64,000 bases of DNA, taken from an uncultured Oscillospiraceae bacterium. Its GTDB lineage: Bacteria; Bacillota; Clostridia; Oscillospirales; Oscillospiraceae. Where the stretch lies: assembly GCA_947627735.1 (NCBI GenBank), contig CANQXG010000001.1:16406-80405 (forward strand). The letters run 5' to 3'. Shown here piece by piece: positions 23,067 through 24,198 of this stretch. Each line of letters starts with the position of its first letter. Within the stretch, counting starts at the first letter, position 1. The notes beneath the pieces are model-generated. The model searched no databases and had not been told where the DNA came from. It was given only the letters and a program-made list of their open reading frames with translations. The position numbers were made by a program, and so were the translations under genes.

Positions 23067-23084
23067 CAAAATAAAGCGTCTGTC
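23067..23084 (+). repeat. Left arm of perfect 18-bp inverted repeat (CAAAATAAAGCGTCTGTC)
   Basis: Exact reverse complement found at 23329-23346. Confidence 0.95.
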
Positions 23085-23110
23085 CAAAAATACTGTACAC
23101 AACATTAGAA

Positions 23111-23139
23111 ATAATAACACATTTCTATATCATTGACAA
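23111..23139 (-). promoter_or_regulatory. Sigma-A promoter reading toward the glycan operon
   Basis: Minus strand TTGTCA-N17-TATTAT with extended -10 TG (TGTTATTAT), inside the IR-bounded segment. Confidence 0.8.
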
Positions 23140-23261
23140 GTGGAAAACAGCGCAATAACAGCGCCTGATTGTCTGATTTGGAAAATACGGGCATGAACAC
23201 AGGGCCGTTGACAAAATCGCTTTCAACGGCCCGCTTCAGTGCGCTCTTAAGGCCCGATCTG

Positions 23262-23295
23262 CCGCCCCGCAAGAAGTCTTGCGGGGCGGTTTTTT
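23262..23295 (+). terminator. Rho-independent terminator inside invertible element, opposite to the promoter
   Basis: CCGCCCCGCAAG-AAGT-CTTGCGGGGCGG-TTTTTT. Confidence 0.9.
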
Positions 23296-23328
23296 GCTCT
23301 GATCTCCATGAGATATCTGCTCATGATA

Positions 23329-23346
23329 GACAGACGCTTTATTTTG
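23329..23346 (-). repeat. Right arm of perfect 18-bp inverted repeat (GACAGACGCTTTATTTTG)
   Basis: Exact reverse complement of 23067-23084. Confidence 0.95.
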
Positions 23347-23355
23347 TTTGCATCG

Positions 23356-24198
23356 CTAACTGACCAGCCCCAGCCGGTCCAGGGTCCGGGCGTGCTCCAT
23401 GCCGGTGGTGATGAGGTATATCCGCGTCGTGTTTATGCTGGAGTGGCCCAGCACGTCCGCCAGCTTCACGATGTCCCGGCAGGCCCGGTAGAACACCGTG
23501 GCGAACAGGTGCCGCAGGTTGTGGGGAAACACCTTCCCCGTTTCCACCCCCGCCAGTGTACATACCGCCTTCATCTCCGCCCATATCTGCCGCCGGCTCA
23601 GGCTCTTTCCGCTTCTGGTGAGAAAGATCTCGCCGGAGGCGATTTTGTTTTTCCTGGCGTATTTCAAAAGCTTCCGGCACAGCTTCCCCGGCAGCATGAT
23701 GGTCCGTATTTTCCCCTTCAGGGCGATCTCCGCCCTGCCCATTTGGGCTGCTTCCACCGTTATGTACCGCACTTCCGACACCCGGATGCCGGTGCCGCAG
23801 ATGGTCTCCATGAGCAGGGCCAGACGCGATTTTCCGCCGTCCTTCGCGGCGGCCACCAGCTTTTCATACTCCGCCTTGGTCAGCTCCCGGCCCGGGTCCC
23901 GGAAGGCCCGGCGCTGGAGCCGCAGGGCCTTGACGCGGCAGTCCTCCCAGCCACAGAACTTGAAAAACGCATTCACCGCCGCCAGCTTGGCGTTCACCGT
24001 CGCCGGGGCATATCCCCGGGCCATAAGCTGTTCCTTCCATGCCACCGCCAGGTCCTTAGTGACCTCCCGCCCGTCCAGCCATGCGGCGAACCCGCGGACG
24101 CTCCGCAGATACGCCTCGACGGTGCCCTCCGCCCGCTCGTCACCGCGAAGGTACGTAGCAAATGCCTCAACGCTCCGGATATCCATCTCTCTACTCAT
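23356..24198 (-). CDS. Tyrosine recombinase, catalytically intact (candidate invertase)
   Basis: TGIRVSEVRYITVEA, LKGKIRTIMLP, FPHNLRHLFATVFY, LADVLGHSSINTTRIYL: R, K, HxxR, H and Y present. Start MSREMDIRS preceded by GGAGGG. Confidence 0.92.
   Translation of the reverse strand: MSREMDIRSVEAFATYLRGDERAEGTVEAYLRSVRGFAAWLDGREVTKDLAVAWKEQLMARGYAPATVNAKLAAVNAFFKFCGWEDCRVKALRLQRRAFRDPGRELTKAEYEKLVAAAKDGGKSRLALLMETICGTGIRVSEVRYITVEAAQMGRAEIALKGKIRTIMLPGKLCRKLLKYARKNKIASGEIFLTRSGKSLSRRQIWAEMKAVCTLAGVETGKVFPHNLRHLFATVFYRACRDIVKLADVLGHSSINTTRIYLITTGMEHARTLDRLGLVS

Follow-up and report, generated by a model that had tools for sequence, protein, structure and literature searches.

The 64-kb window examined here (the whole stretch of DNA analysed, from an uncultured Oscillospiraceae bacterium) contains a 280-bp element, composed of two 18-bp arms and a 244-bp spacer, between a tyrosine recombinase gene and a glycan operon whose first three genes are themselves recombinase-like. 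This locus raises the question of whether the element is a phase-variation switch for the operon, and what recombinase-like proteins are doing at the head of a glycan operon. Little is understood about surface glycans that vary by phase outside Bacteroidota, and it is an open question by what means clashing glycans are avoided in a cell equipped with several independent switches. The 280-bp element is very probably a phase-variation switch, a degree of confidence that covers the switch alone and not the role of the dead paralogs. The original prediction described an invertible cassette at this position; the three recombinase-like operon leaders were absent from it.

The element is bounded by a perfect inverted repeat with 18/18 complementary positions and 244 nt between its arms, exactly as first described. 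The left arm (CAAAATAAAGCGTCTGTC, 23067–23084) sits in the operon's 5′ leader and the right arm (GACAGACGCTTTATTTTG, 23329–23346) lies 9 bp beyond the recombinase stop codon, and both are putative recombination sites. The window contains no second perfect inverted repeat at arm lengths of 18 bp or more and gaps of 20–1500 bp, and Markov shuffles of the window gave just 0.9 inverted-repeat matches even at 14 bp. The arm sequence occurs twice in total in the 2.36-Mb assembly, with up to two mismatches tolerated. The cassette also exhibits a reduced GC content of 45%, compared with 63% for the window. The predicted invertible spacer (23085–23328) encodes a promoter on the minus strand (23111–23139) consisting of TTGTCA (23139–23134), a 17-nt gap and TATTAT (23116–23111) with a TG extension, and the transcription start is expected near 23104. 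This leftward extended -10 promoter, part of the original prediction, scored 14.7 with a promoter position weight matrix (PWM) versus 10.3 for the top site on the opposite strand. The cassette is thus a promoter flanked by inverted repeats, the arrangement of an inverton. The rightward intrinsic terminator that had been proposed was likewise recovered on the plus strand (23261–23296), with a 13-bp stem (23261–23290) containing 10 G-C pairs followed by TTTTTT. A second, conserved hairpin located around 23201–23232 (GGGCCGTTGA..TCAACGGCCC, also written GGCCGTTGA..TCAACGGCC) recurs in the related spacers of loci L048, L049 and L051. A structured-RNA search of the spacer identified no known family above threshold; a sub-threshold match to Spot 42 was set aside as probably merely the terminator.

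The gene adjoining the right arm encodes P0002 (23356–24198, minus strand), an intact tyrosine recombinase of 280 aa with a PF00589 domain (3.2e-25) and matches to the XerA, XerC and XerD models. Both features by which a tyrosine recombinase is recognised, the phage-integrase domain and the full catalytic R-K-HxxR-Y set, are present in this protein, the latter in the motifs GTGIRVSE, GKIR, HNLRH and TRIY. We infer that P0002 is the invertase of the 280-bp element. The idea that a tyrosine recombinase acts here is retained on the basis of this neighbouring gene, and the presumed enzyme is an adjacent cognate recombinase rather than a global enzyme of the Mpi or RecV type.

The same layout of recombinase stop codon, inverted repeat, one promoter, inverted repeat and operon is common to dozens of relatives. 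In these relatives, from the same genus and beyond, one arm is usually within about 5–80 bp of the recombinase stop, and the cassette contains a single strong promoter whose elements are 17 bp apart. A single PWM applied to these loci finds the promoter directed at the operon in about half of them and at the recombinase in the remainder. The window promoter points at its operon, which upholds the reading of the given orientation as ON. Both states are also found within its own genome, where the window locus (C1) is ON and a sister locus (C5) is OFF. The clearest natural inversion is between L049 (genome G005) and L164 (G048), whose spacers are identical at 244/245 positions in inverted orientation and whose recombinase-side flanks are identical at 125/130 positions in the same orientation. 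An SNP in the arm moved along with the spacer, and the exchange therefore took place within the site. This locus lacks dead paralogs, which indicates that they are not required for flipping. Further inverted spacer pairs are L049/L051 (220/245), L058/L066 (91%) and L046/L063 (86%), together with two pairs at loci led by dead recombinases, L048/L086 (187/208) and L156/L158 (199/215). A search of related genomes for the inverted form gave a divided answer: homologous spacers of relatives occur both ways round, but the window spacer exhibits no homology with any sequence among 35 genomes of the genus and so has no inverted counterpart there. Because this spacer has no homolog for comparison, we infer the flipping of the window cassette itself; the claim of an invertible promoter stands for the homologous cassettes, and the window's own cassette has been seen in one orientation.

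Several contigs end at or near an inverton, namely at the ends of L049, L055, L060 and L069 and at the start of L120. The L049 contig terminates precisely at the distal arm's outer edge, which is what mixed orientations in the sample would give. At L049 (7148–7509), L051 (4530–4891) and L164, and also at L052, L067 and L071, two sites are present on one side and one on the other, 40–80 bp apart. Two inversion sizes or a small deletion may be possible at such loci; the inner site is the one used in L049/L164.

The position of the terminator bears on the OFF state. It faces the operon solely in the OFF state at 11 of the 15 scored loci led by dead recombinases, and a terminator-like site in the promoter direction was found only at L112, where it is made by a palindromic inverted-repeat arm. 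This pattern supports the proposal that the OFF state is insulated. After inversion the window terminator would face the operon and shield it from read-through, and the promoter would be aimed at the 3′ end of P0002, antisense to the recombinase gene, whose expression this might dampen.

The operon begins on the minus strand 33 bp past the left arm, and the collinear glycan genes predicted to belong to it (796–20930, minus strand) were assigned by family. They encode a DUF4422 protein, a galactofuranosyltransferase-like protein, a GT52/polysialyltransferase-like protein, NeuB, a cytidylyltransferase and a GFO/IDH oxidoreductase, followed in the inventory by two radical SAM proteins, an SDR, a CBS/cupin protein, a UDP-galactopyranose mutase, a large glycosyltransferase and two YfhO proteins. 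This gene content suggests that the product is a nonulosonate/galactofuranose surface glycan.

Ahead of the glycan genes are the three recombinase-like ORFs, all on the minus strand. The first gene of the operon encodes P0001 (22218–23033, 271 aa), which is preceded by a ribosome-binding site (AGAAAGGAG). The next gene encodes P0003 (21755–22255, up to 166 aa), which consists of the C-terminal domain only, and the third encodes P0004 (20934–21749, 271 aa). A Pfam search returned no match for P0001, P0003 or P0004, and each exhibits weak similarity to XerA-type recombinases. Alignment with 41 active enzymes showed that all three lack the first Arg, the Lys, the HxxR and the Tyr, every R-K-HxxR-Y position being substituted or missing, and they are referred to here as catalytically dead. 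The AlphaFold2 model of P0001 (pLDDT 85.5, pTM 0.58) matches XerA, lambda integrase, XerH and Cre when compared with the PDB, and P0001 is accordingly modelled as keeping the recombinase fold. A tree built from 64 active and 47 dead sequences separates all the dead proteins from the active ones by one branch with an SH-aLRT support of 100%, by which the dead recombinases form one clade of apparently single origin; several rows are long-branched and the inner order is therefore unsure. The dN/dS values of the dead recombinases are 0.05–0.40 across pairs, which indicates that they are maintained by purifying selection. Their net charge is about +4 versus +22 for the active enzymes, making strong DNA binding doubtful. 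This low charge suggests contacts with proteins rather than strong DNA binding, and it could equally be compatible with a role away from DNA. A hidden dead recombinase was also sought as an N-terminal extension of the ABC-2 proteins of these operons; it was absent on inspection and the idea was rejected.

Dead recombinases were found at 39 loci in named species genomes, chiefly Oscillospiraceae MAGs from rabbit gut (‘Lapin’) and to a lesser extent Lachnospiraceae, and they recur behind the invertible promoters of glycan and surface-protein operons in both families. An active recombinase is encoded on the same strand 0.2–5.0 kb upstream of 45 of the 70 distinct dead genes, and many of the others are located at contig starts; for several, no recombinase lies within about 5 kb and no inverted repeat was recognised. 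Two layouts occur, in which the dead gene is either a glycan-operon leader, as in the window, or follows a large surface protein. The second is seen at L046, L056, L057, L061–L064 and others, where the dead gene is 3–4 kb past the inverton; those surface proteins that were tested carry choline-binding repeats or FIVAR repeats. In Lachnospiraceae C57_80, glycan operons are led by a dead protein that has the C-terminal domain alone. The inverton ahead of them is a different one, with 28-bp imperfect arms (GGAGTTTGGAAAGGTATACGTTTCCAAA) and a 91-bp spacer, and is located about 40–190 bp upstream of the first gene of three glycan operons (L117, L118, L119) in one genome. Within that genome L117 is ON and L118 is OFF, and of the three loci one is ON and two are OFF. 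No recombinase of the P0002 family was found in the L117–L119 neighbourhoods. From this layout it follows that the link between a dead recombinase and an invertible promoter recurs with another switch. One dead-recombinase match is labelled Mailhella, possibly through a binning error or transfer. An origin from mobile elements was considered and rejected: there was no match in IMG/VR or phage records, and just three weak plasmid matches (25–28% identity).

In the mechanism proposed for the window, P0002 would recombine the two 18-bp sites and invert the spacer. In the given orientation the promoter would drive the leftward operon, and the transcript would encode the three dead paralogs first and the nonulosonate/galactofuranose glycan enzymes afterwards. 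The dead paralogs would then bind the active recombinase as subunits through their retained interfaces and alter switching, either by locking the ON state or by restraining sister switches. That the dead paralogs modulate the recombinase in this way is a tentative reading, given slightly less than an even chance. With somewhat more reserve still, dead recombinases whose production is confined to the ON state may constitute a dedicated regulator family that exerts feedback on its own inversion or excludes sister loci. In Bacteroides, capsule operons open with genes for the regulators UpxY and UpxZ (PMC7315117). By analogy with their placement, the dead paralogs may be ON-state modulators of the recombinase.

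The position of the dead genes can be read differently. As transcription-level regulators that leave inversion untouched, they would act by UpxY-like antitermination or by UpxZ-like inhibition of other loci, and the first-gene position shared with upxY/upxZ, the loss of most of the positive charge, and the C-terminal-only leader of C57_80, which follows another inverton and has no recombinase in its vicinity, are all consistent with this. Such a role is less likely than modulation of the recombinase, since the modelled fold is recombinase-like rather than resembling NusG or some other known transcription factor, and the majority of dead genes adjoin an active homolog. Functionless, decaying duplication is far harder to reconcile with the data and is very improbable. 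The catalytic residues are gone, one form is cut down to its C-terminal domain, fusions occur and copy number varies, as decay would predict, but the dN/dS range largely refutes it, and the open frames, the C-terminal motif conserved in two bacterial families, the single clade and the retention of first place after the inverton all argue in the same direction.

Two further alternatives concern the recombination sites. The arms of the window are asymmetric, compared with palindromic sites elsewhere, and this could be explained if a dead paralog took one half-site in a heterotetrameric, XerC/XerD-like synapse; sites are mostly palindromic where dead genes are missing or distal and asymmetric at most loci led by dead genes. 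This site pattern is confounded with ancestry and comprises only three independent pairs, L049, L051 and L164 are also asymmetric yet have no dead gene, and the dead proteins are short of positive charge, so that the half-site explanation is improbable. The same asymmetry, together with the lack of an inverted copy of the window spacer, would also fit a fixed relic whose promoter is locked ON and which flips no more. This is quite improbable, given that the two arms are perfectly identical, the recombinase is intact, and asymmetric-site relatives with spacers 90–99.6% identical are found both ways round. Modulation of an active switch by its dead paralogs is the tentatively preferred reading.

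The switch is of a known kind, and its dead-recombinase leaders appear to be a new variation on it. The Mpi enzyme of Bacteroides is a global serine invertase that acts on many promoters. The RecV switches of C. difficile (cwpV, flg, cmr and pdcB) invert leader DNA by means of a tyrosine recombinase, and RecV works in trans on several sites. The window resembles the latter in its proposed tyrosine-recombinase inversion of leader DNA and in its host, which belongs to related Clostridia; to our knowledge, no dead paralogs lead an operon in the RecV switches. Like the capsule loci of B. fragilis and B. thetaiotaomicron, it has a predicted invertible promoter before a surface-glycan operon with putative regulatory genes first, and several loci per genome in differing states. 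It differs in having a dedicated tyrosine recombinase adjacent to each switch rather than Mpi, in an arm that occurs just twice in the genome, and in a first leader that has a recombinase fold whereas UpxY is a NusG-like antiterminator. Yeast Gcr1-type, Crypton-derived regulators also have tyrosine-recombinase ancestry and have lost catalysis; unlike the dead paralogs of the window, they are eukaryotic transcription factors with no link to invertible promoters. A close description is that of inverton group 139 of gut Clostridia, which is paired with a tyrosine recombinase (invertase group 35), includes Intestinimonas butyriciproducens and has had its flipping measured from reads (PMC11892184). 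Both have a clostridial tyrosine recombinase near a short-inverted-repeat invertible element of about 200–260 bp, a likeness of layout and host class by description, and the available text on group 139 mentions no inactive recombinases leading the operon (PMC11892184). A literature search of open-access papers, excluding bioRxiv preprints, identified no description of inactive recombinases leading invertible operons. The dead recombinases form a conserved family and, if produced in the ON state alone, are a specific candidate for a feedback component derived from the invertase; if true, this would convert separate random switching events into a coordinated selection among surface glycans.

The sister locus C5 permits a comparison within one genome. 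The recombinases of the two loci (window 23356–24198 and L045:2721–3560) are about 92% identical, and the inverted-repeat sequences differ despite this. The first dead gene is 57–59% identical between the loci, whereas the last, the counterpart of P0004, is 92–95% identical, and the middle of the module looks, from this comparison, to have been swapped. At C5 (L045:3869–6070) the three dead recombinase units are encoded in a single open frame of 733 aa, and comparable fusions are present at L048/L087, L086, L122, L155, L156 and L158. The rabbit-gut MAG G013 contains 27 recombinase matches in one genome, which suggests a very large set of putative switches.
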